Shown piece after piece: positions 25,885-42,069 of a DNA stretch of 64,000 bases. The DNA comes from Aureitalea sp. L0-47. GTDB taxonomy: Bacteria > Bacteroidota > Bacteroidia > Flavobacteriales > Flavobacteriaceae. The stretch spans positions 62,001 through 126,000 of the forward strand of contig NZ_JAFMTQ010000008.1 in NCBI RefSeq assembly GCF_026126405.1. Direction: 5' to 3'. Numbering within the stretch: position 1 is the stretch's first letter; the number at the start of each line of letters is the position of its first letter. The notes beneath the pieces were generated by a model. The model was not told the origin of the DNA. It saw only the letters and a program-made list of their open reading frames with translations, and searched no databases. The position numbers and the translations under genes were made by a program.

Positions 25885-25927
25885 TGATTAATATCATAGT
25901 TATTAGGAAGAATGACAGATACCTTTG
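25885..25927 (+). promoter_or_regulatory. Crp/Fnr-type site and -7 element of the mla operon
   Basis: The site CTGATTAATATCAT has the core TGA-N6-TCA at 25885-25896 (centre 25890.5). A perfect -7 element TACCTTTG lies at 25920-25927. The first T of TTT (25924) is 33.5 nt from the site centre, which puts the site at about -41.5 relative to the expected transcription start. The start codon of the permease gene is at 25953. Confidence 0.7.
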
Positions 25928-25952
25928 ATAGTTAGGCAATATCACCATAGGA

Positions 25953-26738
25953 ATGAAAGGTCCGGAAAATATACGATCCAGGGCAGTCTCCTTTTTTACC
26001 GAAATTGGAGAGATCTCCTATTTTGCCTTGCGATTCTTTCGAGAGGTTTTCAGGCCACCATTTGAATTCCGGGAACTTATCCGACAGTGCTACAATATTG
26101 GTAACCGCTCACTTTTATTAGTTTGTGTTACGGGGTTTATCCTCGGGCTGGTATTCACGCTACAGTCGCGCCCCACTTTGATGGAATTCGGGGCCGAGTC
26201 CTGGATGCCTTCCATGGTGAGTATTTCCATAGTAAGGGAAATTGGACCAGTGATCATTGCCCTGATCTGTGCCGGTAGGATAGGATCTGGGATAGGAGCG
26301 GAGCTGGGTTCCATGCGAGTAACCGAACAGATCGATGCTATGGAGGTTTCGGGTACAAATCCGTTTAAATACCTTGTAGTTACCCGGATAGTAGCAACGA
26401 CACTAATGCTGCCACTGCTAATTGTAATTGGAGATACCGTTGCTTTATTAGGTTCCGCGATGGTGGAGAATTTGAAAGGGGCAGTATCTTACCAGTTATA
26501 TTTTAACGAAGTGTTCGATGCCCTGAAGTATTCTGATATTGTACCTGCCACTATCAAGTCGTTCTTCTTCGGATTTGCCATTGGCCTCGTTGGTTGTTAC
26601 AAGGGATATTACTGTAGCAAGGGCACTGTAGGGGTAGGTGAAGCATCGAATGCGGCCGTAGTGTATACTTCCATGTTGTTGTTCGTTATTGACTTTATAG
26701 CTGTATTTGTAACCGATATCTTTTTTGAAGTGCAATGA
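25953..26738 (+). CDS. mlaE: MlaE-type ABC transporter permease
   Basis: A 261-residue permease of the YrbE/MlaE family with about five or six membrane helices. Conserved blocks are FILGLVFTLQ, SIVREIGPVIIALICAGRIGSGIGAELGSM and RVTEQIDAMEVSGTNPFKYLVVTR. In proteobacteria this family moves phospholipids between the outer and inner membranes. It overlaps the ATPase gene by 4 bp. The operon has its own Crp/Fnr-type promoter. Confidence 0.92.
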   Translation: MKGPENIRSRAVSFFTEIGEISYFALRFFREVFRPPFEFRELIRQCYNIGNRSLLLVCVTGFILGLVFTLQSRPTLMEFGAESWMPSMVSISIVREIGPVIIALICAGRIGSGIGAELGSMRVTEQIDAMEVSGTNPFKYLVVTRIVATTLMLPLLIVIGDTVALLGSAMVENLKGAVSYQLYFNEVFDALKYSDIVPATIKSFFFGFAIGLVGCYKGYYCSKGTVGVGEASNAAVVYTSMLLFVIDFIAVFVTDIFFEVQ

Positions 26739-27487
26739 AAGAAGATCGATCCATAGCGCCTGTTTTAGAACTGAGAGCCTTAAAAAAGAGCTTCGGAGAT
26801 AATCACGTGCTTAAGGGATTTGATCTACAACTACACGAAGGTGAGATCCTGGTGGTCATGGGTAAATCGGGATCAGGTAAATCGGTTATGATCAAGTGTC
26901 TGGTAGGCCTTATGCAGGCTGATGCAGGAGTGATTCGGATAAAGGGGTATAATATTACCGAATTAGGGCAAACAGAGCTTGACATACTCCGTACAGAGAT
27001 CGGTTTCCTTTTCCAGGGAAGCGCCCTGTACGATTCCATGACGGTTCGTGAGAACCTCGAATTCCCGCTTCGGCACCACAAAGAAAAACTGAGGATCACA
27101 GAGACCAACGAACAACTTGTATTGGAAGCGCTTGAAAACGTCGGGCTGGCTGAAGCTATCGACCTTATGCCCGCAGAACTTTCGGGAGGAATGAAACGAA
27201 GGGTAGCGCTTGCAAGGGCACTGATACTGAAACCAAGGATCATTCTGTACGATGAACCTACCACAGGTCTGGACCCCATCACGTCGAAAGAGATCATTCA
27301 TTTGATGCGTAACATTCAGAAGAAATATAAAACCTCCGCTCTTATCATTACCCATGATGTGGATTGTGCGAGAGTGATCGCAGACCGTATCATTTTGCTG
27401 GTAGACGGAGTGAATTACATTGAAGGAACCTACCAGGAATTGATTCGATCGGACGATCCAAAGGTGCAGGCCTTCTTTAAAACATAG
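26735..27487 (+). CDS. mlaF: MlaF-type ABC transporter ATP-binding protein
   Basis: A 250-residue ABC ATPase: Walker A GKSGSGKS at about residue 42, Q-loop FLFQGSALYDSMTVREN, signature LSGGMKRRVALARAL at about 148, Walker B IILYDEPTTGLDP, and a switch His in ITHD. The Q-loop and the signature MKRR are typical of the Mla/Ttg2 subfamily. It lies between the permease and MCE genes, which fixes the assignment. Confidence 0.93.
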   Translation: MKEDRSIAPVLELRALKKSFGDNHVLKGFDLQLHEGEILVVMGKSGSGKSVMIKCLVGLMQADAGVIRIKGYNITELGQTELDILRTEIGFLFQGSALYDSMTVRENLEFPLRHHKEKLRITETNEQLVLEALENVGLAEAIDLMPAELSGGMKRRVALARALILKPRIILYDEPTTGLDPITSKEIIHLMRNIQKKYKTSALIITHDVDCARVIADRIILLVDGVNYIEGTYQELIRSDDPKVQAFFKT

Positions 27488-27492
27488 AAATC

Positions 27493-28494
27493 ATGCAAAA
27501 GACAGTAGCACAGAAAGTTAGATTAGGTATTTTCGTGATTTTAGGTACAACTTTATTGGTTTCCGCGCTTTATTTTATTGGTAACCGACAGAACCTCTTT
27601 GGAAAGAACATAGAGCTGCACTCGGAGTTTACTAACGTCAACGGTTTGCAGCTGGGTAACAACGTGCGTTATTCCGGTATTAATGTAGGTACAGTTAAAG
27701 CAATCAACATGATAGGACAATCTCGTATCGTGGTTTCTATGTTCATAGAGGAAAAGATTGCTAAGCGTATCAATAAGAACGCGGTGGCTACCATTGGTTC
27801 GGATGGCTTGGTGGGGAGCATGCTTATCAATATTCTGCCGCAGGAGGGGACATCCCCGCCCATTGTTTCCGGAGACACTATACAGTCGTACACCAAGATC
27901 GGGGCCAATGATATTTTGAGTACGCTGAGTGTGACCAACGAAAATGCCGCCATACTCACTTCCGATCTTTTAAAGATCACAACCAAGATCATAGAGGGGG
28001 AAGGAACCATTAGCATGTTGATCAACGATACCACCATGGCCGAAAACCTCAAATTAAGCGTTATCGAGTTGAGAAGGGCGAGCTCGGGGGCTAATGAGGC
28101 GATCCGGCAGTTAAACGGTATTATCGCGGGTATCGATTTCGACGAGAGCGTAGCCGGGGTATTACTTAACGATTCCGTTTCAGGAGAAAAAGTTAAGAAG
28201 ATCATTACCGACCTTGAATCCAGCAGTGGTAATATCGAAATGGTAAGTGCCCAGCTGGATGAGTATGTGAGTGAGATGCGAGCTGGTGAGGGTGCGGTGA
28301 ACAAACTGATCAATGACGAAGTTTTCGCTCAGAACCTGGACACAACACTGTTGAACTTAAAGGAAGCCACCAATAGGCTGAATACGAATATGGAGGCGCT
28401 GAAGCACAATTTCCTCTTCAGGGGCTATTTCAGAAAGCTGGAGCGCCAGAAAAAGAAAGCCGAGCGGGATTCCCTAAAAAAACTAAAAAAATGA
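27493..28494 (+). CDS. mlaD: MlaD-type MCE-domain lipid-binding protein
   Basis: One N-terminal membrane anchor (about residues 10-28) is followed by an MCE domain (about 38-120; NVNGLQLGNNVRYSGINVGTVKAI) and a long helical region to residue 333. MCE proteins form hexameric rings that carry lipids across the periplasm. The C-terminus is very basic (KLERQKKKAERDSLKKLKK). It overlaps the next gene by 4 bp. Confidence 0.9.
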   Translation: MQKTVAQKVRLGIFVILGTTLLVSALYFIGNRQNLFGKNIELHSEFTNVNGLQLGNNVRYSGINVGTVKAINMIGQSRIVVSMFIEEKIAKRINKNAVATIGSDGLVGSMLINILPQEGTSPPIVSGDTIQSYTKIGANDILSTLSVTNENAAILTSDLLKITTKIIEGEGTISMLINDTTMAENLKLSVIELRRASSGANEAIRQLNGIIAGIDFDESVAGVLLNDSVSGEKVKKIITDLESSSGNIEMVSAQLDEYVSEMRAGEGAVNKLINDEVFAQNLDTTLLNLKEATNRLNTNMEALKHNFLFRGYFRKLERQKKKAERDSLKKLKK

Positions 28495-28982
28495 AACTAG
28501 AACATCTGGAAGAACGTGTAGCCGATTACAAGATGTCCATTGAAAAGGTAGTCGATAAGAAAACTATGTGGAACGAGAGTTTAAAAGGGTTGATAAAGAA
28601 TACCCTGAAGAGCATTGTGAATCGTTATGACATTGGTTGGAAGGTACAGGAATTGAGTTGGATGTATTCCAATGAAGCAGTAAATATCACTTTCGAATCA
28701 TTTCCTCCCGAACTGATCGATTGTACAAACCGCATACCTGCCTATCAATTCATTCCGGGCGGATCACTGGTGTTTTCACAAACCTACAATGGTGATGTTT
28801 TCGTATTTATACTATTGCCACATAACGAAACCATACAGAATGAAAAGGACATGATAGATATGGGTACATTTTCTCCTTCGGAAATGACCGAGAAATTAAT
28901 TGTAGAGAAAGTAGATGATTTCCTGAAAGAAATGATCCGATGGGAATTACCCAATAAGAAAAATCGCGTAGGATTTAGTTGA
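28491..28982 (+). CDS. Conserved protein at the end of the mla operon, unknown function
   Basis: A 163-residue soluble protein without signal peptide or membrane segment. I do not recognise a family. The sequence mixes an N-terminal helix with a beta-rich middle (VNITFESFPPEL; GSLVFSQTYNGDVFVFILLP) and a helical end. The start overlaps the MCE gene by 4 bp, so it is co-translated with mlaEFD and may serve the same lipid transport process; that is inference from position only. Confidence 0.75.
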   Translation: MKLEHLEERVADYKMSIEKVVDKKTMWNESLKGLIKNTLKSIVNRYDIGWKVQELSWMYSNEAVNITFESFPPELIDCTNRIPAYQFIPGGSLVFSQTYNGDVFVFILLPHNETIQNEKDMIDMGTFSPSEMTEKLIVEKVDDFLKEMIRWELPNKKNRVGFS

Positions 28983-28998: not shown

Positions 28999-29412
28999 TT
29001 AAGGTCTTTTCTGTTGTTCAAGGTAGAATTTAATTACATCGGCAGTGGAAACAATACCTGCAACTTTGTCTCCTTCTAATACTGGAATGGCCCTGAATCT
29101 ACCTCTTCCCAGCTCTTCTGCAACATCCTGGATGGGTGTTGAGGTTTTCACCGTGTAAGGATTGGGTGTCATAATATCTTTAACCGTAAGTTTATGATAA
29201 ATCTCGTTGCTGTCGTCCAGTCCCGCACCCTTGATTCGATACATAAAATCGATTAGACTCACCATTCCCACTAGCCTGTCGTTTTCAATAACGGGTATGT
29301 GATGGTGGAAGTCGGACTTTTCGTATATGTGCTTAACATCTATGAGTTTTTGTGAGGGTGATACACATACCACTTCTTTGGTCATTATCGATTCGACAGC
29401 CCTGGGTTTCAT
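28999..29412 (-). CDS. CBS-domain pair protein
   Basis: A 137-residue protein made almost entirely of two CBS motifs (MKPRAVESIMTKEVVCVSP, about 1-60; VKDIMTPNPYTVKTSTPIQDVAEEL, about 75-135). CBS pairs bind adenine nucleotides or related ligands and act as energy or redox sensors. The ATG at 29412 fits the domain start; an upstream TTG at 29430 is less likely. It is convergent with the mla operon, and divergent from the phasin-like gene across a shared Crp/Fnr-type site. Confidence 0.88.
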   Translation of the reverse strand: MKPRAVESIMTKEVVCVSPSQKLIDVKHIYEKSDFHHHIPVIENDRLVGMVSLIDFMYRIKGAGLDDSNEIYHKLTVKDIMTPNPYTVKTSTPIQDVAEELGRGRFRAIPVLEGDKVAGIVSTADVIKFYLEQQKRP

Positions 29413-29440
29413 AACTACGGAATTTTGCAATTTACAAGCT

Positions 29441-29514
29441 TAAAGTAAAGGTGAAAAGCTCAATTTTCAACTGATCAAAGTCATAGTTACGGCTACTGTT
29501 ATACGATAACTTTG
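29441..29514. promoter_or_regulatory. Crp/Fnr-type site between CBS and phasin-like genes
   Basis: CTGATCAAAGTCAT has the core TGA-N6-TCA at 29472-29483 (centre 29477.5). On the plus strand a perfect -7 element TAACTTTG is at 29507-29514, with its first TTT base at 29511, 33.5 nt away. On the minus strand a weaker TTACTTTA (29448 to 29441) has its TTT starting at 29444, also 33.5 nt away. One site could therefore activate both divergent genes. Confidence 0.68.
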
Positions 29515-29543
29515 TTAGTAATGCATTCTCAAATTGCCGTACT

Positions 29544-29918
29544 ATGAAAACTAAAACAATACTAGAACTACTCACGCTTTCGGCAAGCCTGTATCACATC
29601 GCGAAAGACACTCATCTGATGGAAAAAATACAGGAATATTCAGAAAAGAGCAAACAGGGCATCAACCAGGTAGCTGCAGAACCTTTGTTGGATGAAGATG
29701 GAAATGAACTTGAACTTATGGATAAGATCCTCCATAAAGCCGGGGAGATGAAGCAGGAGCTGGAAATGAAGATCGAAGAGCTGGTGGCTGCTTTCTACAA
29801 AAAGATAAACGTGGCACACCTGGATGAAATTAAAGCCTTGAATGAAAAGCAAGATAAGGCAGACAGGACGATAGCGCTTCTGGAAGCTAGGCTGAACAAG
29901 CTCGAATTAAAAACGTAA
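29544..29918 (+). CDS. Phasin-like coiled-coil protein
   Basis: A 124-residue, helical, charged protein without signal peptide. It has a short hydrophobic start (ILELLTLSASLYHIAKD), an acidic middle, and a C-terminal coiled coil with leucines at heptad spacing (DRTIALLEARLNKLEL). The shape resembles small granule-associated phasins, but I see no diagnostic motif. It ends one base before the AarF-type gene and should be on the same transcript. Confidence 0.7.
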   Translation: MKTKTILELLTLSASLYHIAKDTHLMEKIQEYSEKSKQGINQVAAEPLLDEDGNELELMDKILHKAGEMKQELEMKIEELVAAFYKKINVAHLDEIKALNEKQDKADRTIALLEARLNKLELKT

Positions 29919-29919
29919 G

Positions 29920-31623
29920 ATGGGTATCCTAACGGGCATAGGACGAAAGTTTAGATCGGTATCTCGTTACAACCAGATCTTAAAGGTACTTCTGAAATAT
30001 GGTTTCGAGGATCTGGTGCAGCACCTGGAGGAGCGGAATGAATATAATCTCCTTCGGAAAATGATACCGAAATCTTCCCGCAAACACGCTGTAATGTATA
30101 CCAAGTGGGAGAAAATGCGTATGGTTTGCGAGGAATTAGGCCCCACTTTTGTAAAATTTGGCCAGATACTCAGCAATCGTCCGGACCTTATTCCTTTGGA
30201 ACTCGTTCTCGAACTTGAGAAGTTACAGGACAATGTTCCACCCATGGCCGAAGATGTCGCCAAAAAGGTGGTTGAAGAAGAATTGAACGCGCCGGTACAT
30301 GAGTTATTTGCCTGGTTCGAACCAAAATCCTTCGCTTCGGCATCCATGGCGCAGGTGCACAAAGTAACGCTACACACAGGAAGGCGGGTTGCGCTGAAAG
30401 TCCAACGCCCGGGTATTCAAGAGATCATCGAAGAGGATATCAAGGTAATGTACAAGGTGGCCGAGATCATTGAAAAACGGATACCTTCTGTGCGAAACTT
30501 CGATCCGGTTGGCCTGGTTCGCAATTTTGAAGATGCCATTACCAAGGAAATGGATTTTATCAATGAATCCATCAATGTGCAACGCTTTTACAACAACTGG
30601 TACCTGGATCGCGGTCGGGATCAGTTTGCCTGTTCCCCCAAAGTATACCAGGAATTCACGACAAGTAAGGTGCTGGCACTTGAGTTTATGAACGGAACCA
30701 AGATTGGCAGGATCCAGAGATTGGAGGAAAAGGGGTTCGACACCAAGATGATCGCGCGGCGATTGACAAAGAGTTTCTTTAAGCAAATATTTGAATACGG
30801 ATTTTTCCATGCAGATCCACATCCGGGAAATTTACTCGTGCTGCCCAACGGAAAGATCTGTTATCTCGACTTCGGAATGATGGGAAGCATACTTCCGAGG
30901 GATATTGAAGTCTTTGGTAAGTTATTCCTGGCAATTTCCCGCAAGGAGGTTAACAAGGTGATCAAGGCGCTTCAGCGGTTGTCTAACGAAATGGTGGTAG
31001 ACGATATGCGCAGCCTGGAATTCGATATTTCAGAATTCATTGAGAAATATTATACTCGCGACATTCATAAGAATGAGATGAGTACCATATTGTTAGAATT
31101 AAAGGATATTATCATTAAAAACGGACTGGTAGTACCTTCTCATTTCTTCCTCTTCGCAAGATCACTGGTAACTATAGAGGGTGTAGTACAGAAGTTGGAC
31201 CCAAAATTAGAACAGTTTGATGTAGTAAAACCTTATCTCTCCAGGGCAGTGAGTAAAGGCTTCGACCCTATAAAGCTAGGTGAGAAAGCGTATAATTCCA
31301 TTTATGAACTTGCCAGTTATATGGAGGAGTTTCCGAGGGATCTTCGAAACGCCATCCGTAGAATTAATACCGGACAGGTAAAGGTAGATCTAACGCACAA
31401 AGGGATGGATCCTATGATTCACACCATAAACAGGGTAACTAAACAGTTGGTAACTGCATTTATCATGGTAGCACTTATTGTAGGAGCTGCACTGCTCATC
31501 ACATTTAAGATAGGTCCGCTGTGGTGGGATAATTCTGCCTTTGGAATTCTCTGTGCCGCCGCCGCTGCAATATTAGCCATAGGCATGTTACGCGACATCA
31601 GTAAAGGTGATTACGATCGATGA
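29920..31623 (+). CDS. AarF/ABC1/UbiB family protein kinase-like protein
   Basis: A 567-residue atypical kinase. The family-specific KxGQ motif is in VKFGQILSNRPDLIP (about residue 80). The ATP site includes ASASMAQVH and VALKVQRPG, and the catalytic part has FHADPHPGN and YLDFGMMG. Two hydrophobic helices at the C-terminus (about 500-560) probably anchor it to the membrane. Family members are linked to quinone biosynthesis and lipid-dependent functions. Its Crp/Fnr-type promoter would place it in low-oxygen physiology. Confidence 0.9.
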   Translation: MGILTGIGRKFRSVSRYNQILKVLLKYGFEDLVQHLEERNEYNLLRKMIPKSSRKHAVMYTKWEKMRMVCEELGPTFVKFGQILSNRPDLIPLELVLELEKLQDNVPPMAEDVAKKVVEEELNAPVHELFAWFEPKSFASASMAQVHKVTLHTGRRVALKVQRPGIQEIIEEDIKVMYKVAEIIEKRIPSVRNFDPVGLVRNFEDAITKEMDFINESINVQRFYNNWYLDRGRDQFACSPKVYQEFTTSKVLALEFMNGTKIGRIQRLEEKGFDTKMIARRLTKSFFKQIFEYGFFHADPHPGNLLVLPNGKICYLDFGMMGSILPRDIEVFGKLFLAISRKEVNKVIKALQRLSNEMVVDDMRSLEFDISEFIEKYYTRDIHKNEMSTILLELKDIIIKNGLVVPSHFFLFARSLVTIEGVVQKLDPKLEQFDVVKPYLSRAVSKGFDPIKLGEKAYNSIYELASYMEEFPRDLRNAIRRINTGQVKVDLTHKGMDPMIHTINRVTKQLVTAFIMVALIVGAALLITFKIGPLWWDNSAFGILCAAAAAILAIGMLRDISKGDYDR

Positions 31624-32279: not shown

Positions 32280-32322
32280 TAAATGTCTGTAAATATGTCG
32301 GTGATTACAATGAGGAATGTCA
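32280..32322 (-). promoter_or_regulatory. Candidate Crp/Fnr-type site of the coiled-coil gene
   Basis: ATGAGGAATGTCAC has the core TGA-N6-TCA at 32311-32322 (centre 32316.5). The minus strand reads GACATTTA from 32287 to 32280, a poor -7 element, but its TTT starts at 32283, again 33.5 nt from the centre. This is the weakest member of the set. Confidence 0.5.
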
Positions 32323-32370
32323 CCAATTGGTGTTATTAAAAGTATTATTTCTTCAGAATAAATATTGCGA

Positions 32371-32649
32371 CTATTGGCTTGTAGAACCCATACGACCCGC
32401 GGCACAGCTGACGAAGGACTTTGCTTTGGTCATAAAGGAATTAGCATCTTCAGCCAATGGATATCCGAGAGCGATCAGTTTGTGATGCGCTGTTTCGTAG
32501 GCTTCCTGATTCTCGAAATCGAAAGTAACGGAAGAATCCTCGTCATTAACAATGACTTCGGATATTCCGGGTAGCAATTCAAGGTTCTTACGAATGGTGT
32601 TTGCACACCCGCCACATTTCAAATTCTGAACGTATTGTGTAGTTTTCAT
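32371..32649 (-). CDS. Heavy-metal-associated (HMA) domain protein
   Basis: A 92-residue copper-chaperone-like protein. The metal site LKCGGC gives Cys12 and Cys15, followed by the usual ferredoxin-like fold (VTFDFENQEAYETAHHKLIALGYP). It is divergent from the copper P-type ATPase gene ccoI and probably handles copper for the cbb3 oxidase. Both genes share one Crp/Fnr-type site. Confidence 0.9.
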   Translation of the reverse strand: MKTTQYVQNLKCGGCANTIRKNLELLPGISEVIVNDEDSSVTFDFENQEAYETAHHKLIALGYPLAEDANSFMTKAKSFVSCAAGRMGSTSQ

Positions 32650-32665: not shown

Positions 32666-32739
32666 CAAATTTACAAACACCCGGCCAAAGAGTAGCTGAT
32701 TTTTGTCATAGTTTAACGATCTCCAACTTCCAATATTTG
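32666..32739. promoter_or_regulatory. Crp/Fnr-type site shared by the HMA gene and ccoI
   Basis: CTGATTTTTGTCAT has the core TGA-N6-TCA at 32697-32708 (centre 32702.5). The minus strand has a perfect -7 element TAAATTTG (32673 to 32666) with TTT starting at 32669. The plus strand has AATATTTG (32732-32739) with TTT starting at 32736. Both are exactly 33.5 nt from the centre, a mirror-symmetric divergent promoter. Confidence 0.72.
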
Positions 32740-32768
32740 CGACAGGTAAATGAGTAACTAAGTTGGAT

Positions 32769-35183
32769 ATGGAGCATTGCGCCCATTGTGGGGACCCATG
32801 CAAGGAGGAATTAATCTATCTGGAAAAGCTTCCATTTTGTTGTAACGGTTGTAAAACCGTTTACGAATTATTGCATGAAAATGACCTCAGTTATTATTAC
32901 GAATTAGAACAAACTCCCGGAGTATCTCCTAGAGAATTTGAACATAAGTTCGATTTTCTCGATAACGAAACTATTGCCGATAAATTACTGGAATTTAAAG
33001 ATGGCCATACAAGTGTGGTTGCTTTTCTAATTCCTTCCATTCACTGTTCCTCGTGTATATGGGTATTGGAGAACCTTAATAAACTTCAGCCCGCGGTTCA
33101 AAGTTCCCAGGTGAATTTTCCCGAAAAGACCATTCGGATCACGTTCAATTCGGATCGGGTTCACCTTAAGCAACTTGTTAAATTACTGAGCAGGATCGGT
33201 TATGAACCTTATATCTCCCTGGAGGATTCGGATAAGAAGAAACGAATCATCAACAGAAGCTTGATCTATAAATTGGCGGTAGCCGGCTTTGCATTCGGAA
33301 ATGTGATGTTTCTTTCATTCCCGGAATATTTCGAAGTGGATGGATACTGGCTTGAACGCTTTGCTCCGGTATTCCGTTGGTTAATGTTTGCCTATTCAAT
33401 TCCGGTGGTATTTTATGCGGCCCAGGATTATTTCATTTCAGCTTTCAAAGGATTGCGGTCGAGGATCTTAAACATCGATGTCCCCATTGCTCTGGGAATT
33501 CTGGTGCTATTCGTAAGAAGTACCATTGATATCGTCCTGAATTGGGGTACTGGCTTCTTCGATAGTCTCACCGGCCTGGTATTCTTCTTGTTGGTTGGGA
33601 AGTTCTTTCAGCAAAAAACATACAGTTACCTATCCTTTGAGAGGGATTATAAATCCTATTTCCCTATTGCGGTTACGCGATTGGCCAAGGATGAAAATGA
33701 AAATGTTTATGAAGAACAGGTAGAAGTTTATGAAATTAAAAAAGGAGACCGCATCCTGGTTCGAAACAACGAACTACTACCGGTGGATGCCATACTAATT
33801 AGAGGAAACGCTCTTATCGATTACAGTTTTGTAACTGGTGAATCTGAACTGGTCTCAAGGAACAGCGGTGATAAATTATTCGCCGGAGGGAAACAACAAG
33901 CCGGGGTATTGGAAGTTGAAGTGCTGAAACCTGTAGAACAAAGTTATCTCACTCAGCTATGGAGCAACGACGTGTTTGATGTGGATAAACACAGCGCTTT
34001 CCAGTCGTTCACAGACAGTATCTCCAAGCGGTTTACAGTGGCTGTTTTAACCATTGCTTTTGTGGCAACCTTGTTTTGGATGATCTATGATCCATCCAAA
34101 GCATTTAATGTCTTCACTGCAGTGCTCATCGTTGCATGTCCTTGTGCCATTGCACTATCGGCACCGTTTACGCATGGTAATTTGCTGAGGATCTTCGGAA
34201 GGTTGAGATTCTATGTTAAGGAGGCATTAGTGGTTGAAAGGATGGCGGGTGTAGATGCTGTGGTTTTCGACAAAACCGGAACACTTACCAGCGGCTCAGG
34301 CAGCAATATGACCTATGAAGGCATAGCACTTACGAATGATGAGGAGGAGCTGCTAACCAGTACCCTTAGGGCCTCCAATCACCCTTTGAGTAGGTCCTTG
34401 TACGATATGCTGAAGGATCATGATATCAAGACCCTGGACTCTTTCGAAGAGAAGGCAGGTAAGGGAATAACTGGATCGGCAGATGATCAGTTTATAAAAG
34501 TAGGTTCATATAAGTTCGTTTCCGAAGGAAAAGGAGATGAGAACAAATTGGAAGAAAGCATCAACAGGACAGCGGTTCACATCAGTAGTAATAATTTGTA
34601 TAAAGGATGTTATGTGTTTCAGAATCAATATCGTGACGGACTTTCAGAATTGCTGAAAGAACTTTCCAAAGAAAAGAAACTTGTGGTCTTGTCTGGTGAC
34701 AATGACGGAGAGCGTGAACGTTTAATGAAGCTAGTTCCTGCAGGAACGGCTATGTACTTCAATCAGAAGCCGGAAGACAAGCTCAACTTTATACATGAAA
34801 TGCAGCAAAACGGCAGCAAGGTCATGATGGTAGGAGATGGTTTGAATGATGCCGGTGCCTTGCAGCAAAGTGATATTGGTGTTGCCATTGCCGAGAATGT
34901 TAATATTTTTTCGCCGGCTTGTGATGCCATCCTGGATGCGTCTAAATTCGATCAACTTGCACAGTTCTTCCAATTGTCGAAATCAGGTATGCGAATTATT
35001 AGGTGGAGTTTTGTTTTATCACTGATTTACAATGTGATAGGATTGGGATTTGCAGTAACCGGGAATTTGGCTCCTGTTGTGGCAGCCATTCTTATGCCAT
35101 TGAGTTCCATAAGTATTGTTGTCTTCACCACGCTGGCAACGCGATATTTTGGGAGTCGGCTTATTAAAAATAAAAATGAATGA
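32769..35183 (+). CDS. ccoI: Copper-translocating P-type ATPase CcoI/FixI type
   Basis: CcoI supplies copper for assembly of cbb3 oxidase. An N-terminal cysteine-rich segment (CAHCGDPC ... CCNGC, about residues 4-28) precedes an HMA-like domain with Cys93 and Cys96 (IHCSSC). Eight membrane helices include the CPC metal site at about 456-458 (VACPCAIALSAP). TGES and DKTGTLT (phosphorylated Asp at about 501) and GDGLNDAGAL are present. The start is taken at the ATG at 32769; a TTG at 32763 is an alternative. Position next to ccoS and ccoN supports the role. Confidence 0.93.
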   Translation: MEHCAHCGDPCKEELIYLEKLPFCCNGCKTVYELLHENDLSYYYELEQTPGVSPREFEHKFDFLDNETIADKLLEFKDGHTSVVAFLIPSIHCSSCIWVLENLNKLQPAVQSSQVNFPEKTIRITFNSDRVHLKQLVKLLSRIGYEPYISLEDSDKKKRIINRSLIYKLAVAGFAFGNVMFLSFPEYFEVDGYWLERFAPVFRWLMFAYSIPVVFYAAQDYFISAFKGLRSRILNIDVPIALGILVLFVRSTIDIVLNWGTGFFDSLTGLVFFLLVGKFFQQKTYSYLSFERDYKSYFPIAVTRLAKDENENVYEEQVEVYEIKKGDRILVRNNELLPVDAILIRGNALIDYSFVTGESELVSRNSGDKLFAGGKQQAGVLEVEVLKPVEQSYLTQLWSNDVFDVDKHSAFQSFTDSISKRFTVAVLTIAFVATLFWMIYDPSKAFNVFTAVLIVACPCAIALSAPFTHGNLLRIFGRLRFYVKEALVVERMAGVDAVVFDKTGTLTSGSGSNMTYEGIALTNDEEELLTSTLRASNHPLSRSLYDMLKDHDIKTLDSFEEKAGKGITGSADDQFIKVGSYKFVSEGKGDENKLEESINRTAVHISSNNLYKGCYVFQNQYRDGLSELLKELSKEKKLVVLSGDNDGERERLMKLVPAGTAMYFNQKPEDKLNFIHEMQQNGSKVMMVGDGLNDAGALQQSDIGVAIAENVNIFSPACDAILDASKFDQLAQFFQLSKSGMRIIRWSFVLSLIYNVIGLGFAVTGNLAPVVAAILMPLSSISIVVFTTLATRYFGSRLIKNKNE

Positions 35184-35186
35184 ACC

Positions 35187-35229
35187 TGATAAATGTCATT
35201 TTTTGAGGCAGGGACTCAGGCTACTTTTA
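35187..35229 (+). promoter_or_regulatory. Crp/Fnr-type site of the ccoS-NO-Q-P operon
   Basis: CTGATAAATGTCAT has the core TGA-N6-TCA at 35187-35198 (centre 35192.5), starting 4 bp after the ccoI stop. The -7 element TACTTTTA is at 35222-35229 with TTT from 35226, 33.5 nt from the centre. The ccoS start is at 35250. Confidence 0.68.
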
Positions 35230-35249
35230 CGACTTAATTACACATAGGT

Positions 35250-35443: not shown

Positions 35444-37642
35444 ATGGAAGTAGAGAAGTTTTATTACGATAATAAGATCGTTAGAAGTTTCCTATATGCC
35501 ACCATCTTCTGGGGTATTATTGGAATGAGCGTCGGTTTATTACTGGCGTTTATGTTTTTATTCCCTAACCTAACCGAAAACATATCTTGGTTAAGTTTCG
35601 GTCGTTTACGTCCGCTACACACCAATGCTGTGATCTTCGCCTTTGTGGGGAACGCAATTTTTGCAGGGGTGTATTACTCACTACAACGCTTACTTAAAGC
35701 ACGAATGTGGAGTAACTTCCTCAGTAAGTTTAATTTCTGGGGATGGCAGTTAATCATCGTTTCCGCGGCAATTACGTTGCCTTTAGGGTATACAACTTCA
35801 AAAGAATATGCAGAGCTGGAATGGCCAATCGATATTGCGATTGCATTAGTTTGGGTTGCTTTTGGTGCGAACATGATAGGAACCATACTGAAAAGAAGAC
35901 AGCGTCACCTGTACGTTGCCATCTGGTTCTATCTTGCCACCTTTGTAACAGTAGCGGTATTGCATATCGTAAATAGTATGGAACTTCCCGTGCATGCTCT
36001 TAAGAGCTATTCTGCCTATGCGGGGGTTCAGGATGCCCTGGTTCAATGGTGGTACGGACACAATGCTGTGGCATTCTTCCTTACCACACCTTTCTTAGGA
36101 CTCATGTACTACTTCGTGCCTAAGGCGGCGAATCGTCCTGTGTATTCCTACAAACTTTCCATAGTGCACTTCTGGTCACTGATATTTATTTATATCTGGG
36201 CCGGACCACACCACTTATTGTATTCTGCACTTCCGGATTGGGCCCAAAACCTGGGTGTTGCTTTTTCCGTAATGCTTATTGCACCTTCATGGGGAGGTAT
36301 GATCAACGGGCTGTTAACCCTTCGTGGAGCCTGGGATAAAGTAAGAACAAGCCCGGTACTAAAATTTATGGTGGTAGCCATCACCGGTTATGGTATGGCA
36401 ACTTTCGAGGGGCCTATGCTTTCACTGAAGAATGTAAACGCTATCGCTCACTTTACCGATTGGATCATTGCTCACGTACACGTGGGAGCCTTGGCTTGGA
36501 ATGGATTCCTGGCATTTGGTATGATCTATTGGTTAATTCCGAAGTTGGTTAAATCACCGCTCTGGTCGAAAGGATGGGCAAACGCCCACTTCTGGATTGG
36601 GACCCTGGGTATTATACTCTATGCACTTCCATTGTATGTCGCCGGATTTGTGCAGGCATTCATGTGGAAACAGTTTAATCCGGACGGTACTTTAGTATAT
36701 GGTAACTTCCTTGAAACAGTGAGTGAGATTATGCCAATGTACTGGATGCGTGCAATAGGAGGTAGTATGTATATATTAGGTGCGATTATGCTTCTTGTTA
36801 ATGTGGTTATGACTATCAGAAGTGGTAGCAAAGTAACCGACGAACTTGCAGAGGCTGCTCCACTAAAACGAGTTACCAAACGAAGAACTGCAAAAGAAGG
36901 TTATCACACCTGGTTAGAAAGAAGACCTGTGAAACTTACAATTTATGCTACTATAGCAATATTGATAGGAGGTATGGTTCAGATCATTCCATCGTTGATG
37001 GTAGACGACTATGTTCCTAAGATCACTAGTGTGAAACCTTATACCGCACTTGAACTGGAAGGTCGAGATATCTATATTCGAGAAAGTTGTAACGCTTGTC
37101 ACTCGCAAATGATCCGTCCGTTCCGTAGCGAAGTGGAACGTTATGGTGAGTATTCCAAATCCGGTGAATATGTTTACGATCACCCATTCCTTTGGGGTAG
37201 TAAACGAACCGGCCCCGACCTCTTTAGAGTAGGTGGAAAATACTCAGACAACTGGCACTTCAACCACTTCTGGGATCCGCAAACAACCTCTCCGGGATCA
37301 ATCATGCCTCGATATACCTGGCTGATTAAAAATTCCCTGGATAAATCGTTAACAGAGAAGAAAATGGAGGTTATGGTTTCATTAGGTGTTCCATATACCG
37401 AAGAAGAAATCACCGCTGCTCAGGAGTCGATGTTGGAACAAGGGACGCAGATCGAAGAGAATTTATTCGCCGATCCGGACTTTGTGAAGACCTATGAAGC
37501 CGATAAGCAAGCCACTTTAGAAAGTGGTGAGGAGTTTGTGGATATGAGAAACAGAGAAGTCGTAGCCCTGATAGCATACTTGCAGCGACTTGGAACTGAT
37601 ATTAAAGTAGAGAATAACGAAGAAGTAACCCTAAATCAATAA
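35444..37642 (+). CDS. ccoNO: cbb3 cytochrome c oxidase, fused subunits CcoN-CcoO
   Basis: The N-terminal ~480 residues are the catalytic haem-copper subunit I with about 12 helices and histidine ligands (for example RLRPLHTNAV, WYGHNAVAFF, WAGPHHLLYSALPDW, DWIIAHVHVGALAWNG). After a basic linker (TKRRTAKEGYHTWLERRP) comes the CcoO part: one helix and a cytochrome c domain with SCNACHSQ (Cys548, Cys551, His552 approximately) and an axial Met probably in GSIMPRYTWL. In proteobacteria these are separate genes. The fusion is common in Bacteroidota. Confidence 0.94.
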   Translation: MEVEKFYYDNKIVRSFLYATIFWGIIGMSVGLLLAFMFLFPNLTENISWLSFGRLRPLHTNAVIFAFVGNAIFAGVYYSLQRLLKARMWSNFLSKFNFWGWQLIIVSAAITLPLGYTTSKEYAELEWPIDIAIALVWVAFGANMIGTILKRRQRHLYVAIWFYLATFVTVAVLHIVNSMELPVHALKSYSAYAGVQDALVQWWYGHNAVAFFLTTPFLGLMYYFVPKAANRPVYSYKLSIVHFWSLIFIYIWAGPHHLLYSALPDWAQNLGVAFSVMLIAPSWGGMINGLLTLRGAWDKVRTSPVLKFMVVAITGYGMATFEGPMLSLKNVNAIAHFTDWIIAHVHVGALAWNGFLAFGMIYWLIPKLVKSPLWSKGWANAHFWIGTLGIILYALPLYVAGFVQAFMWKQFNPDGTLVYGNFLETVSEIMPMYWMRAIGGSMYILGAIMLLVNVVMTIRSGSKVTDELAEAAPLKRVTKRRTAKEGYHTWLERRPVKLTIYATIAILIGGMVQIIPSLMVDDYVPKITSVKPYTALELEGRDIYIRESCNACHSQMIRPFRSEVERYGEYSKSGEYVYDHPFLWGSKRTGPDLFRVGGKYSDNWHFNHFWDPQTTSPGSIMPRYTWLIKNSLDKSLTEKKMEVMVSLGVPYTEEEITAAQESMLEQGTQIEENLFADPDFVKTYEADKQATLESGEEFVDMRNREVVALIAYLQRLGTDIKVENNEEVTLNQ

Positions 37643-37647
37643 GAGTC

Positions 37648-37845
37648 ATGTTGAAATTTATAAAAGGAAACCTGGAGAATATTGATGGGGTTGAGATCTA
37701 CCCGATCATCTCACTATTGATATTTTTTGTCTTCTTTGTTGTACTGGCCATTTGGGTATTAAGTGCGAAGAAGCAATACATTGAGGAAGTAAGCAATATT
37801 CCTTTAGAAGAAGATACTAACACCAACAATACTATTCAATTATGA
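37648..37845 (+). CDS. ccoQ: cbb3 oxidase small subunit CcoQ
   Basis: A 65-residue protein with a single membrane helix (about residues 20-42; IISLLIFFVFFVVLAIWVL) and a short polar tail. Identified by its position between ccoNO and ccoP and by its topology. CcoQ stabilises the oxidase complex. Its stop overlaps the ccoP start by 4 bp. Confidence 0.82.
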   Translation: MLKFIKGNLENIDGVEIYPIISLLIFFVFFVVLAIWVLSAKKQYIEEVSNIPLEEDTNTNNTIQL

Positions 37846-38807
37846 AAACAGTCGCGTCATATCTAAGAGTAATCATATTTATGGTGATCGCCTTTGTGCT
37901 GCTGGAAGTAACTATAGATGGCGGCGATCAAATGGCCATTGAAAAATACCCAATAATTTGGGGAGTACTTGCAATGCTGGCTCTATTCGCAGCTGCTGTT
38001 GAGATCGTTTCCGAATCTCTGAAATCCATCATGTTCAGAGGAATGACACCAGAGGCTCAGGAACGCTACCTTGAAAAGGAAGCTTTAAGGAAGGAGAACC
38101 AATTTTCCGGAATTAAAAAGTTGATGAGAAAGCTGGAAGGTAGTAAATCAATAGAAGAAGAAGGTGAGATCGTTCTTGATCACAACTACGATGGTATCAA
38201 GGAGCTTGACAACAAGCTTCCGCCATGGTGGTTATACGGATTCTACATCACTATTATTTTCGCAGGTATCTACCTGGCTCGTTACCATATTTTCGATGGA
38301 GTGAGCACATCAGAGGAGTTTGAAATTGAGATGGAAGATGCTCGCCTGGCAATTGAAGAGTATAAGAAGACCGCTAAAGACCTGGTGGATGTAAATACAG
38401 TTGAATTGTTAACCGAAGAATCTGACCTGGCCGCTGGTAAGGTGATTTTCGAAGGAAAATGTGCCGTTTGTCATAAGAACGATGGAGGTGGAGGTATTGG
38501 TCCGAATCTAACGGATCAACACTGGATCCTGGGTGGAGGAATCAAGAATGTATTCCAAACCATTTCCGAAGGAGGCCGTGACGGTAAAGGTATGGTGTCA
38601 TGGAAGTCGGAGCTTAGTCCGGCCGAAATGGCACAAGTAGGAAGCTACATTCTTACCATGCAGGGTACAACCCCGGCAGAACCTAAAGCTCCGGAAGGAG
38701 AAATATGGGTTGATCCGGACGCTGAAGCACCAGCAGAAGAAGTTATGGAAACTGTAGTAGATTCTATTGCCACGGAGGCAGAGATAACTATGACCGATAA
38801 CGAGTAA
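37842..38807 (+). CDS. ccoP: cbb3 oxidase subunit CcoP with a single haem c domain
   Basis: Two N-terminal helices (about residues 8-25 and 36-58), then a hydrophilic stretch and a third helix in the block PPWWLYGFYITIIFAGIYLARYH, which is the CcoP hallmark. Only one haem-binding motif is present, CAVCH (Cys207, Cys210, His211), with GIGPNLTDQHWILGGG and GMVSWKSELS. Classical CcoP has two haem domains. The C-terminus is acidic and Ala/Glu-rich. Electrons pass from this domain to the CcoO part of the fused subunit. Confidence 0.92.
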   Translation: MKTVASYLRVIIFMVIAFVLLEVTIDGGDQMAIEKYPIIWGVLAMLALFAAAVEIVSESLKSIMFRGMTPEAQERYLEKEALRKENQFSGIKKLMRKLEGSKSIEEEGEIVLDHNYDGIKELDNKLPPWWLYGFYITIIFAGIYLARYHIFDGVSTSEEFEIEMEDARLAIEEYKKTAKDLVDVNTVELLTEESDLAAGKVIFEGKCAVCHKNDGGGGIGPNLTDQHWILGGGIKNVFQTISEGGRDGKGMVSWKSELSPAEMAQVGSYILTMQGTTPAEPKAPEGEIWVDPDAEAPAEEVMETVVDSIATEAEITMTDNE

Positions 38808-38862
38808 AACCTAGAACATAAGAACCCTGGTCATTAACCGAGAATAACCTAAAAATTGAAAA

Positions 38863-40284
38863 TTGGAAACACCGGAAGATGAAATATTCAGGGATAGTAT
38901 TGCAACTATAGATAAAGAGGGTAAGCGAGCCTGGATCTTCCCTAAGAAACCTTCGGGAAGGTATTATGAGAAACGCAAACTGGTAAGTTACATTTTACTT
39001 GCCTTTTTGTTCGCCGCACCCTTCATCAAGATTGGTGGAAACCAATTTATAATGATCAATGTCCTGGAACGGCGGTTCAATATCTTTGGATTCCCGTTCT
39101 GGCCACAAGACTTCCACTTATTCGTGATCATGATGATCATCGGGGTGGTATTCATCGTATTTTTTACCGTTGCCTTCGGAAGGATTTTCTGCGGATGGAT
39201 CTGTCCGCAGACCATCTTTATGGAAATGGTATTCAGAAGAATTGAATATTGGATTGAAGGTGATCGTGGTAAGCAAATCCGACTTGATAAACAAAAGTGG
39301 AACCGTGAAAAGATCCGAAAACGTACTTTGAAATGGTTTGTGTTCTTTGTCATTTCGTTCCTTATCGCTAACGTATTCCTGGCCTACATCATAGGAAGCG
39401 ATAAACTTATAGAATACATAACGGAAGGCCCTATTGAAAACATGAGCACGCTTATTTCATTGCTCATCTTTACAGCTGTATTCTATTTCGTCTTCGCCTG
39501 GTTCCGTGAGCAGGTATGTATTATTGCATGTCCTTACGGAAGATTGCAGGGAGTACTGTTAGACAACCGCTCGATTATTGTTGCCTACGACCATAAGCGA
39601 GGAGAAAGAGAAGCTGGTCGGGCTAAATTTAAAAAGGATGAAGACCGTGAGGCATCCGGAAAAGGAGATTGTATAGACTGTTTCCAGTGTGTTAATGTTT
39701 GTCCTACGGGAATCGATATTCGGAATGGTACGCAGCTCGAATGTGTGAACTGTACAGCGTGTATTGATGCCTGTGACCATATGATGGAGAAGGTTGACCT
39801 TCCGAAAGGACTTATCCGTTATGCCAGCGAGGCAAATATTGAGAGCAAAGAGAAATTTAAATTCGGTGCCAGGTTAAAAGGGTACTCTGCGGTTCTGGTT
39901 ATACTGATAGGAGTGTTCATTGGGATGTTATTCCTTCGGAATGACGTTGAAGCGAGGATACTCAGGCTCCCGGGTCAGCTATACGAAAAGGTAGACGAAA
40001 ACACAATAAGCAATGTGTATACCTATAAATTGGTGAATAAAACCACCGAAGAGATTGAAAATATACGATTTGAGCTAATGTCTCATGATGGTACGATAAG
40101 AATGGTGAAAGACGGTAATATTAATGTTGAAGAACAGGGTATTTCTGAAGGAACCCTTTTTATTGAAATAAAATCTTCAGATCTGTCCAGCGACAGAGAA
40201 AAAGTAAAAATTGGAGTCTACAGTGGTGATAAACTGATAGAATCAACCAAATCAGCCTTTTTAGGGCCTAGAAGTTATAATTAA
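38863..40284 (+). CDS. ccoG: Cytochrome oxidase accessory protein CcoG/FixG
   Basis: A 473-residue membrane iron-sulphur protein with several helices, the FCGWICPQ block near residue 110, and two 4Fe-4S clusters (CIDCFQCVNVCP and CVNCTACIDAC, about 265-305). A periplasmic FixG_C-like domain ends the protein. CcoG reduces copper during cbb3 assembly in studied bacteria. The start is a TTG at 38863, with no ATG near the expected N-terminus. Confidence 0.92.
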   Translation: METPEDEIFRDSIATIDKEGKRAWIFPKKPSGRYYEKRKLVSYILLAFLFAAPFIKIGGNQFIMINVLERRFNIFGFPFWPQDFHLFVIMMIIGVVFIVFFTVAFGRIFCGWICPQTIFMEMVFRRIEYWIEGDRGKQIRLDKQKWNREKIRKRTLKWFVFFVISFLIANVFLAYIIGSDKLIEYITEGPIENMSTLISLLIFTAVFYFVFAWFREQVCIIACPYGRLQGVLLDNRSIIVAYDHKRGEREAGRAKFKKDEDREASGKGDCIDCFQCVNVCPTGIDIRNGTQLECVNCTACIDACDHMMEKVDLPKGLIRYASEANIESKEKFKFGARLKGYSAVLVILIGVFIGMLFLRNDVEARILRLPGQLYEKVDENTISNVYTYKLVNKTTEEIENIRFELMSHDGTIRMVKDGNINVEEQGISEGTLFIEIKSSDLSSDREKVKIGVYSGDKLIESTKSAFLGPRSYN

Positions 40285-40294
40285 AGATGAAATT

Positions 40295-40741
40295 ATGAAG
40301 TTCAACTGGGGAACGGGAATTGTTATCGGGATGGTATTGTTCATTGGGTTTATCATGTATATGGTAATAACAATGATGACAGACGATGCCTATAATCACG
40401 ATCTCGTTACCGAGGGCTATTATGAAAAAGACCTCCAATATCAGAAGGAGATCAATGCTGAAGAGAATAGTCAGAAGAAATTTGCAAATATTACGGGTGA
40501 AAAGGTAGCCGAAGGATGGCTGCTGCATTTTCCCGAAGATCTGGATCCCAATAAAATAAAAGGAAAAGTGTTCCTATACAGACCGTCTAATAAGCGATTG
40601 GATTTCGACATACCCATAGTTATATCCAATGCTCAATTACTCATACCTGATGAACGTTTATTGGACGGTCGCTGGAACATTACCTTGGATTGGGAATACG
40701 AAGGAGAACACTATATGTACAAGGAATCCATAGTCTATTAA
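40295..40741 (+). CDS. ccoH: FixH/CcoH family protein
   Basis: A 148-residue protein with one N-terminal helix (about residues 7-28), the segment MTDDAYNHDLVTEGYYEKDLQYQ typical of FixH, and a periplasmic beta domain (LFRPSNKRLDF-like, here VFLYRPSNKRLDFDIP). It helps cbb3 oxidase assembly. It lies 10 bp after ccoG and 4 bp before the SafE-like gene. Confidence 0.9.
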   Translation: MKFNWGTGIVIGMVLFIGFIMYMVITMMTDDAYNHDLVTEGYYEKDLQYQKEINAEENSQKKFANITGEKVAEGWLLHFPEDLDPNKIKGKVFLYRPSNKRLDFDIPIVISNAQLLIPDERLLDGRWNITLDWEYEGEHYMYKESIVY

Positions 40742-40745
40742 ACTT

Positions 40746-41486
40746 ATGCTTTGGTCTGGCTTCATACTGGGATTGTTAGGTAGTTTCCACTGTGTGGGAA
40801 TGTGTGGCCCTATTGCATTCGTGTTGCCTCTGGATAGAAAAAGCAGATCGAAGCGAATGCTTCAGGTGTCTCTGTATCATCTTGGGCGTATTATAACCTA
40901 TAGTCTTATCGGATTACTTTTCGGACTATTGGGCAGAGGCCTGTATCTTTTTGGTTTACAGCAAAAAATATCTGTAATCACGGGTATTCTTATGATTCTC
41001 GCAGTAGTCCTGGCGGCTACATCCATAAGGAAGTTTAGGTTTTCAGCACCCTTGTACAAGGCAATATCCGGACTAAAAAACAAACTGGGAGCAGCGCTCA
41101 AGAAAAAATCACCCGATACTTTTCTAACCATAGGTTTCCTCAATGGATTTCTGCCTTGCGGATTAGTTTATATGGCTGTTTTTGGTGCGATTGCCGCAGG
41201 AGATTTGTTTCAAAGTAGTTTGTATATGGTGCTTTTCGGACTGGGTACCATACCGCTTATGACCACTGCTGTTTACTTCGGAAATTTCCTTACCGGTAAA
41301 ATTCGTCATCGAATTCGGAAAGTGATTCCGGTATTCGTTGTGATCGTTGGTGTGCTTTTCATTTTGAGGGGCCTCGGACTTGGAATACCATACATTTCAC
41401 CAAAACCCATGAGTGAGAAAGTGGATGCCGAAATGGAATGTCACACTTCAATAAGTTCAGAAAAAATAATTCATTATAATTCGTAA
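40746..41486 (+). CDS. Sulfite exporter TauE/SafE (UreH-like) family membrane protein
   Basis: A 246-residue protein with about six helices. The N-terminal GLLGSFHCVGMCGPIAFVLPL and the later NGFLPCGLVYMAVFGA are the signature of the CcoG/FixH-linked SafE/CcdA-like subgroup, which is found in cbb3 operons. The Cys pairs in MCG and PCG could bind or pass copper or electrons. The exact function is unknown. Confidence 0.88.
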   Translation: MLWSGFILGLLGSFHCVGMCGPIAFVLPLDRKSRSKRMLQVSLYHLGRIITYSLIGLLFGLLGRGLYLFGLQQKISVITGILMILAVVLAATSIRKFRFSAPLYKAISGLKNKLGAALKKKSPDTFLTIGFLNGFLPCGLVYMAVFGAIAAGDLFQSSLYMVLFGLGTIPLMTTAVYFGNFLTGKIRHRIRKVIPVFVVIVGVLFILRGLGLGIPYISPKPMSEKVDAEMECHTSISSEKIIHYNS

Positions 41487-41497
41487 ACGATAACGCT

Positions 41498-41635
41498 ATG
41501 CAAGCACTTAATATACCATTAGTAGACTGGGGTAACGGCGTAATAATGATCGGGGTTTTTGCCCTGGTAGTCGTAGTCCTTATCGGGGTTACTATTTATT
41601 ATATGTCTCAGGGTAAAAAGAAAGAAGACGAGTAA
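41498..41635 (+). CDS. 45-residue single-helix membrane protein at the end of the cbb3 operon
   Basis: A short reading frame starts 11 bp after the SafE-like gene: MQALNIPLVDWGNG, one strong membrane helix (VIMIGVFALVVVVLIGVTIYY), then a charged tail (SQGKKKEDE). A terminator follows within 6 bp. The helix-then-lysine tail and operon position suggest a real small protein, perhaps a further small subunit or assembly factor of the oxidase. I do not recognise a family. Confidence 0.65.
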   Translation: MQALNIPLVDWGNGVIMIGVFALVVVVLIGVTIYYMSQGKKKEDE

Positions 41636-41640
41636 AACAT

Positions 41641-41675
41641 AAAACGGGAGCAATTCGAAAACTGCATCCCGTTTT
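41641..41675 (+). terminator. Terminator of the cbb3 operon
   Basis: AAAACGGGA (41641-41649) pairs with TCCCGTTTT (41667-41675). GCA/TGC inside the loop extends the stem. The stem could serve the opposite strand too, since the hemN remnant ends at 41699. Confidence 0.7.
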
Positions 41676-41698
41676 ACGCTTCTAACTAATAAACCAAC

Positions 41699-42007
41699 TT
41701 AAACCGTCATAGAAAAGAGTTGAGTTTCCGGTTTTTTGCGTGTTAAGCGCAAATCGAAACTCATACACACGTTTCTTACGAACGGCCTACCTTTCTCAGT
41801 GACCTGAATTCGGTCACTTTCCATTTCGATCAAACCATCTGTTTCCATTTCTTTCAACCGGATCAAAACATCCGGAAGTTCATTAAACTTCATATCATCG
41901 CTTTTCCATGAAGTTTCGAAATGACACATCAGGTTTAAAATATGCGATCGAACAATGAGATCTTCCTTGTTTAAAAGATGTCCCCTATATACAGGGAGTA
42001 TGTTATT
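41699..42007 (-). pseudogene. hemN: 3' remnant of hemN (oxygen-independent coproporphyrinogen III oxidase)
   Basis: The frame from just after a TGA at 42008-42010 to 41699 codes about 100 residues that match only the C-terminus of HemN: PVYRGHLLNKEDLIVRSHILNLMCHF, then RIQVTEKGRPFVRNVCMSFD close to the end. Full HemN has about 455 residues. The radical-SAM core (CxxxCxxC) is missing, and only 134 bp separate the fragment from the next gene, so there is no room for it. The first ATG in frame is at 41929, which would give 76 residues. The C-terminal stop is intact. The fragment sits under an intact Crp/Fnr-type promoter. It is either a deletion remnant or a retained C-terminal-domain protein. 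Confidence 0.78.
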
Positions 42008-42025
42008 TCAACCAACCGTTGAGCA

Positions 42026-42069
42026 CAAAACTAAGGTGAGGTGGTCTCAAATAATATGATAATTATCAT
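42026..42069 (-). promoter_or_regulatory. Palindromic Crp/Fnr-type site and -7 element of the hemN remnant
   Basis: ATGATAATTATCAT at 42056-42069 is a perfect 14-bp palindrome with the TGA-N6-TCA core (centre 42062.5). On the minus strand a perfect -7 element TAGTTTTG runs from 42033 to 42026 with TTT from 42029, again 33.5 nt from the centre. No -7 element stands at the mirror position toward 42144. Confidence 0.72.

Follow-up and report, generated by a model that had tools for sequence, protein, structure and literature searches.

A probable regulon for low oxygen in Aureitalea sp. L0-47, with class II promoters, a FixL-like kinase, and a fused receiver-Crp activator

We analyzed a window of 64,000 nucleotides (C66:62001-126000) in the 3,382,708-base genome of Aureitalea sp. 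L0-47. Several promoters of the window probably belong to a class II regulon that responds to low oxygen and is controlled by a FixL-like kinase and a fusion of a receiver domain with a Crp-type regulator. Palindromes of the form [CA]TGAY-N4-RTCAT precede dozens of genes at a fixed distance, 29.5 nt to the T of a TAnnTTT element. In the proposed mechanism, the kinase would autophosphorylate once the haem of its FixL-like PAS domain loses O2, and the phosphate would be passed to the receiver of the adjacent fused response regulator. The fused protein would then bind the palindromes as a dimer; positioned at about -41.5, the dimer would recruit RNA polymerase to promoters that have the -7 element of Bacteroidota. 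A single protein would thereby combine the rhizobial FixJ and FixK.

The genome was scanned for TGATNNNNRTCA followed, after any gap of 10-40 nt, by TANNTTT. A gap of 23 nt corresponds to the geometry proposed by an earlier, sequence-only reading of the window, in which the motif centre lies 33.5 nt from the start of TTT. The genome contains 61 matches over the 31 gaps, and 21 of them have gap 23, compared with six for gap 22, three for gap 24, and 0-3 for each of the other 28 gaps. A wider pattern with the same spacing, in which C is allowed as the fourth base and any base replaces the T of TA, yields 53 sites versus three for the backward-read pattern. The relatives are represented by 80 named loci (best 80 of 585; 1.467 Mb, mostly Flavobacteriaceae) that were collected via alignment of the regulator and are not independent, as several come from close species. 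Here, among gaps of 5-80 nt, gap 23 accounts for 220 matches and gap 45 for 19, whereas the 74 other gaps have 0-9 matches (mean 3.7); at least one gap-23 site is present in 70 of the 80 loci. Thus, the combination of motif and spacing proposed for the window recurs across the genome and among its relatives more often than chance would give, so that the regulon passes the refutation test set by the earlier reading, and at this level, that of sequence, the regulon and its promoter geometry can be considered demonstrated.

The logo of the 220 sites reads AA[CA]TGAT-WWWT-RTCAT-[TA][TG]T, then a signal-free stretch, then TAnYTTT[AG]; the search pattern dictated the letters of the core, and the flanks were free. 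The site centre lies 29.5 nt from the T of TAnnTTT, which matches the interval that separates a site at -41.5 from where the -10 element begins in CRP/FNR promoters of class II. The class II position proposed earlier is borne out by a site-to-promoter distance that is fixed in the genome and in its relatives near -41.5, a value derived from the -7 element. Gap 45 places the site 22 nt further upstream; a second, class I-like position is not claimed, because these 19 matches are heterogeneous in sequence and include near-copies shared between related genomes. In Aureitalea sp. L0-47, 46 of the 53 sites have an open reading frame (ORF) of at least 60 aa starting 40-150 nt downstream (a raw hand count on a mechanical ORF listing); one of these 46 is a gene remnant (hemN, see below) and one is doubtful. 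Of the flagged sites, two fall within an ORF, one of them ambiguously. In the loci of the 80 relatives, a site is found 30-150 nt upstream of 138 of 257 Usp starts, versus 98 of 5140 random positions.

Three proteins of the Crp type turned up in the genome. The sequence-only reading had placed the regulator outside the window, and one of the three, the receiver-Crp fusion, is indeed encoded elsewhere, at C64:133508-134566. This protein of 353 aa consists, by Pfam, of a receiver (residues 5-117; PF00072, 103 bits), a cNMP-binding-like domain (164-249; PF00027, 60.4 bits), and HTH_Crp (285-351; PF13545, 50.2 bits), the latter two scores both being above the cut-off. The cNMP-binding-like fold and the Crp-type helix-turn-helix (HTH) place the protein in the Crp/Fnr superfamily, and a receiver with the acidic pair, the phospho-acceptor Asp, and the Lys (D10, D53, and K105 are invariant in 12 fusions) makes it a response regulator. 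It is not FNR proper, as a cysteine cluster ahead of the cNMP domain is absent and the receiver stands there instead; neither does it belong to the FixJ family, since its output is cNMP plus HTH_Crp, not a LuxR-type HTH. The earlier expectation of a Crp/Fnr-type regulator therefore holds for the fold and the HTH, but the likely regulator is a fusion beside a FixL-like kinase rather than a plain Crp/Fnr. Assignment to a known named family was rejected for both proteins, as no listed NCBIfam model reaches its cut-off (best 25 of 104 for the regulator, best 25 of 91 for the kinase). Among the best 60 of 382 PDB sequences, each represented by its best stretch, none matches over both the receiver and the Crp parts. 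Some genomes encode an additional fusion of this type with 39-51% identity to the query (G120:C79:108628-109659 and G131:C5:222338-223366).

The kinase (409 aa, PAS-HisKA-HATPase) is encoded upstream and overlaps the start of the fusion gene by four bases. In 76 of the 80 loci of relatives, an ORF of kinase size ends where the regulator begins; Nonlabens ulvanivorans and Dokdonia pacifica are among the species with the pair. The best PDB matches of the PAS domain are the haem O2 sensors DosP (1.7e-14) and FixL (8e-14). In the alignment, the kinase has both the haem His and the FG-loop Arg, whose roles we take over from work on FixL; among the six PAS_9 matches in the genome, both residues are present, as judged by eye, only in this kinase. 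In the kinases including our own, the His column holds H in 69 of 77 and the FG-loop column R in 53 of 77, although the alignment of these columns may be wrong where a kinase has additional domains. Oxygen, sensed through a haem-binding PAS domain, is the likely signal. We consider it unlikely that the regulator and the boxes act as proposed while the signal at the PAS domain is something other than oxygen, such as nitric oxide (NO), the redox state, or a different ligand. In favor of this alternative, the range of ligands bound by PAS domains is wide, R is found in the Arg column of only the above-mentioned 53 kinases, and the targets include the stress genes Usp, Hsp20, and PPK2; against this, the closest PDB matches are oxygen sensors, and cbb3, CcoI, the POR-family oxidoreductases, and the hydrogenase form an oxygen-limitation set.

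The Crp-type proteins of the collected loci comprise 94 fusions, 17 Cys-type proteins (single-domain, with at least three cysteines near the N terminus), and three others. The recognition pattern [AS][TS]E[ST]xIR is shared by 78 of the 94 fusions, including our own (ATESLIR), and by 15 of the 17 Cys-type proteins; most of the 16 remaining fusions have close forms such as APESLIR, and four (L052-L055) have ETVSR. In the tree of the Crp part, built from 38 of the 94 fusions (every third one plus distant ones), 17 Cys-type proteins, and four others, the sampled fusions and the Cys-type proteins lie on opposite sides of one branch (85/100). L057, an ungrouped Crp-only row whose ORF is truncated at the edge of a G074 contig, falls inside the fusion branch. 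No Cys-type Fnr-like protein was found in the genome of Aureitalea sp. L0-47. That the fusion is the regulator of the boxes is strongly suggested. It is rather improbable that the boxes are real but read by one of the other two Crp-type proteins of the genome, encoded on contigs C4 and C11, with the fusion serving other targets. Both carry a Crp HTH, a site at C4:93205 adjoins the C4 gene, and the C4 helix REVISR could also read TGA; but REVISR and the C11 helix RVVISR differ from the pattern common to most fusions and Cys-type proteins, both proteins lie outside in the tree on long branches, and in relatives the sites crowd around the fusion gene. Two loci, from Algibacter pacificus (L104) and Hyunsoonleella ulvae (L114), carry a Cys-type gene that begins about 0.9 kb beyond the fusion gene, at about 11970.

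To map the distribution of the fusion in the order, a genome was counted as a carrier if its best match covered both the receiver and the Crp part (best E at most 3.6e-74); G074, with the two parts on separate contigs, was counted among genomes without the fusion. The counts come from complete per-genome rows. A full-length fusion is present in 12 of 119 genomes, and these 12 contain 162 gap-23 versus 23 gap-18 matches. Fusion genomes differ from the others with a Mann-Whitney p of 3e-6 overall, a value flattered by the many small genomes in the rest of the order that have few sites of any kind, and with p of 0.014 in the family of Aureitalea sp. L0-47 (nine genomes with the fusion, six without). 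In its genus, the fusion is found in five of the six other genomes (72-90% identical), with 4-22 sites.

Several observations weigh against control of this regulon by the kinase and the fusion. The 107 genomes without the fusion are also enriched in the geometry, with 284 gap-23 versus 105 gap-18 matches, and in family f5 the three fusion genomes do not differ from the ten others (p 0.5). Three fusions of the same family (L052-L054) have the different helix ETVSR. Genome G123, from the genus of Aureitalea sp. L0-47 (97% complete, 240 contigs), has no fusion match, yet contains three sites. In the alignment, 24 of the 77 kinases lack the Arg and eight lack the His; haem binding is proposed from two residues and PDB similarity, and similar PAS domains that are haem-free may exist. 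A role of gap-23 sites in autoregulating the kinase operon is not supported, as they occur in only three of 77 cases. Finally, some boxes of the genome are of the TGAC-N4-GTCA form on both sides (C1:81712, C14:27220, C55:83586, C44:102754-103525, and others); these may be sites of one of the two other Crp proteins, or else a variant of the box. Thus, the presence of the fusion goes with more sites, while other genomes use the same spacing. An exclusive tie of the geometry to the fusion was therefore rejected, and the spacing alone does not name the fusion as its regulator.

The readers of the same boxes in relatives appear to be Fnr-like proteins that carry cysteines and are probably of the Fe-S type. 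In Flavobacteriales, these Cys-type proteins (n=17) resemble the fusion in the recognition pattern, and the promoter spacing is enriched in fusion-free genomes; unlike the fusion, they are single-domain proteins with at least three N-terminal cysteines and form a separate branch of the tree. FNR and ANR of Proteobacteria have the TGAY-N4-RTCA core, the class II position, and targets of the low-oxygen type in common with this regulon. In contrast to them, the fusion has a receiver in place of the N-terminal Fe-S cysteines, and the FNR/ANR box is TTGAT...ATCAA, whereas the box described here mostly has C or A at the outer left and T at the outer right position.

The FixL-FixJ-FixK and hFixL-FxkR-FixK cascades are described in PMC4999443 and PMC7888657. 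According to these papers, FixL-FixJ-FixK of rhizobia and Caulobacterales shares with the system considered here a FixL-like PAS kinase, a response regulator, a Crp/Fnr activator, cbb3 as a target, and the TGA-N6-TCA box. The difference is that the receiver and Crp domains form one protein here, so that a FixJ-to-fixK transcription step is absent; the receiver half also has no sequence homology to a FixJ HTH. Crp/Fnr homologs of Flavobacteriales have been termed MalR-like and predicted to sense carbon supply (PMC8510549). MalR and other Crp-type regulators of Bacteroidetes belong to the same superfamily and phylum, but a receiver domain is not mentioned in that paper (0 term matches). In Flavobacterium psychrophilum, a transcription-start map reported induction of cbb3 by oxygen limitation, and the words Fnr and Crp are absent from the main text (PMC9723704). 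The passages of PMC9239204 examined for Crp outputs of response regulators contain none. In the titles and abstract starts listed by searches of the open-access literature, no receiver-Crp fusion or FixL-like kinase of Bacteroidota is found, although the response-regulator censuses of Galperin may tabulate the receiver-Crp architecture.

A wider evolutionary scenario, for which we see the balance as roughly even, is that FixL-FixJ-FixK collapsed in Bacteroidota to a kinase and a fusion of single origin, while in sister lineages Fe-S Fnr-like proteins read the regulon with the same kind of helix, the same boxes, and the same spacing. Since the regulon would be read in the same way, one gene set would have exchanged its oxygen sensor, from Fe-S to phosphorelay, with the promoters kept fixed; the second Mla set described below would tie envelope lipids to low oxygen. 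Two sensing heads on one conserved regulon would suggest a clean case of regulator replacement. The model of flavobacterial low-oxygen control is complete and testable, with a candidate sensor, regulator, box, promoter spacing, and some 20-50 sites.

In the window, the sequence-only reading had listed six sites sharing one motif, at coordinates one base later than those used here. Upon re-reading, four of them (25884, 29471, 32696, and 35186) match CTGATNNNNRTCAT exactly and 42056 has one mismatch, while 32310 (ATGAGGAATGTCAC) has only TGA-N6-TCA, with three departures from the motif, and is weak. The claim of eight promoters at 33.5 nt, five with full or nearly full elements, agrees with our count: TTT is at this distance in eight orientations (25884+, 29471+, 29484-, 32323-, 32696+, 32709-, 35186+, and 42069-), and TA is also positioned in five of them (25884+, 29471+, 32709-, 35186+, and 42069-). 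Among the 12 orientations of the six sites, TTT is missing from this place in two others, including 42056+ before the gene at 42144. As the earlier reading had itself cautioned, the motif is no proof without the geometry: bare TGAYNNNNRTCA occurs nine times in the window versus 5.1 expected, and six of 100 shuffles reach nine. That would suit chance placement of AT-rich intergenic palindromes near frequent TAnnTTT strings, an explanation of negligible probability that is already refuted by the gap histograms (21 of 61 at one spacing of 31; 220 versus a mean of 3.7 in relatives) and is also at odds with the conserved mlaE site described below. The features of the window are as follows.

25884..25930, + strand: site CTGATTAATATCAT with -7-like element TACCTTTG, mlaE promoter; exact motif and spacing
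25953..28494, + strand: mlaE, ATP-binding protein, and mlaD, a second Mla set (Pfam MlaE, ABC_tran, MlaD)
28999..29430, - strand: two-CBS protein (Pfam CBS); weak promoter 29484- (TTACTTTA), TTT placed, TA not
29471..29517, + strand: site CTGATCAAAGTCAT with TAACTTTG; sites matching by sequence in same-genus genomes G119, G120, and G123 (by eye)
29544..31623, + strand: 124-aa helical protein and ABC1/UbiB (AarF-type) kinase-like protein (ABC1, PF03109)
32310..32323, - strand: weak site GTGACATTCCTCAT, GACATTTA; poor motif match
32371..32649, - strand: HMA-domain protein (Pfam HMA); promoter 32709- (TAAATTTG)
32696..32742, + strand: divergent site CTGATTTTTGTCAT; + element AATATTTG, - element TAAATTTG
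32763..35183, + strand: CcoI-type metal P-type ATPase (E1-E2_ATPase, ATPase-cat_bd, HMA)
35186..35232, + strand: site CTGATAAATGTCAT with TACTTTTA, cbb3 cluster promoter; near-identical sites in G119 and G120
35444..41486, + strand: cbb3 cluster of CcoNO fusion, CcoP, CcoG, CcoH, and DsbD_2 protein (COX1+FixO, FixP_N, Fer4_18+FixG_C, FixH, DsbD_2)
41705..42007, - strand: hemN remnant of about 100 aa, C-terminal positions 350-453 of the 454-position TIGR00538 profile
42023..42069, - strand: site ATGATAATTATCAT with TAGTTTTG, ahead of the hemN remnant

The site before mlaE is conserved. TGA-N6-TCA and TTT at the exact spacing are found in Aureitalea sp. L0-47 and before all seven other orthologs (at least about 70% identity); the eight loci span four genera including its own, and the spacers differ. 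One of the seven genomes, G132, has a Crp-only match and no full-length fusion match; presumably, the other type of regulator acts on its mla site. Two genomes of the genus, G122 and G124, have no close MlaE ortholog, only a distant paralog. Aureitalea sp. L0-47 (G000) also encodes a second, distant MlaE (C67:29672-30364, 32% identical), and the boxed copy is the one missing from G122 and G124. The gene at 28491-28982 is the last one of the mla operon.

The kinase-like protein scores 409.7 bits against UbiB TIGR01982, under the cut-off of 487.55, and the 124-aa helical ORF has only weak, sub-cut-off Pfam matches. The proteins at 28491-28982, 29544-29918, 31656-32255, and 42144-42677 have no Pfam match above the cut-off and no NCBIfam match. 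Outside the window, boxes precede HypA and the diaphorase subunit of a Hox-type operon, in which a 2Fe-2S/NADH-G plus Oxidored_q6 protein and the large subunit of a NiFe hydrogenase come next. Boxes also precede two POR-family (pyruvate-type ferredoxin) oxidoreductases, a 4Fe-4S ferredoxin, PPDK, and formate-tetrahydrofolate (THF) ligase. Other boxed genes encode PPK2, AsnA, a beta-eliminating lyase, an aminotransferase, a protein with a pyridine-nucleotide-disulphide-reductase fold, DUF4405, Usp, and Hsp20; the names methionine gamma-lyase, YceI-like protein, and CcoS were assigned by eye only. The set of cbb3, CcoI, NiFe hydrogenase, HypA, and POR-family oxidoreductases fits low oxygen. The regulon would link genes of respiration, hydrogen metabolism, and fermentation to a lipid-transport operon. 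On this model, the second mlaEFD set, the ABC1/UbiB-like kinase, the CBS protein, and the small helical proteins are predicted to rise together with cbb3 at falling oxygen.

The sequence-only reading had also counted hemN among the targets. A site with the proper spacing does stand in front, but the gene is reduced to a C-terminal remnant (TIGR00538, 67.8 bits, under the cut-off of 324.95), which is in frame and begins about 60 nt past the intact box, where the gene start would be. Full-length hemN is present in four genomes of the genus (G119, G121, G123, and G124). In G120, positions 409-453 are left, with a stop, and G122 has no clear hemN, only weaker matches resembling HemW or other relatives. 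The hemN gene is under loss in this genus, and in Aureitalea sp. L0-47 the promoter box outlives the gene.

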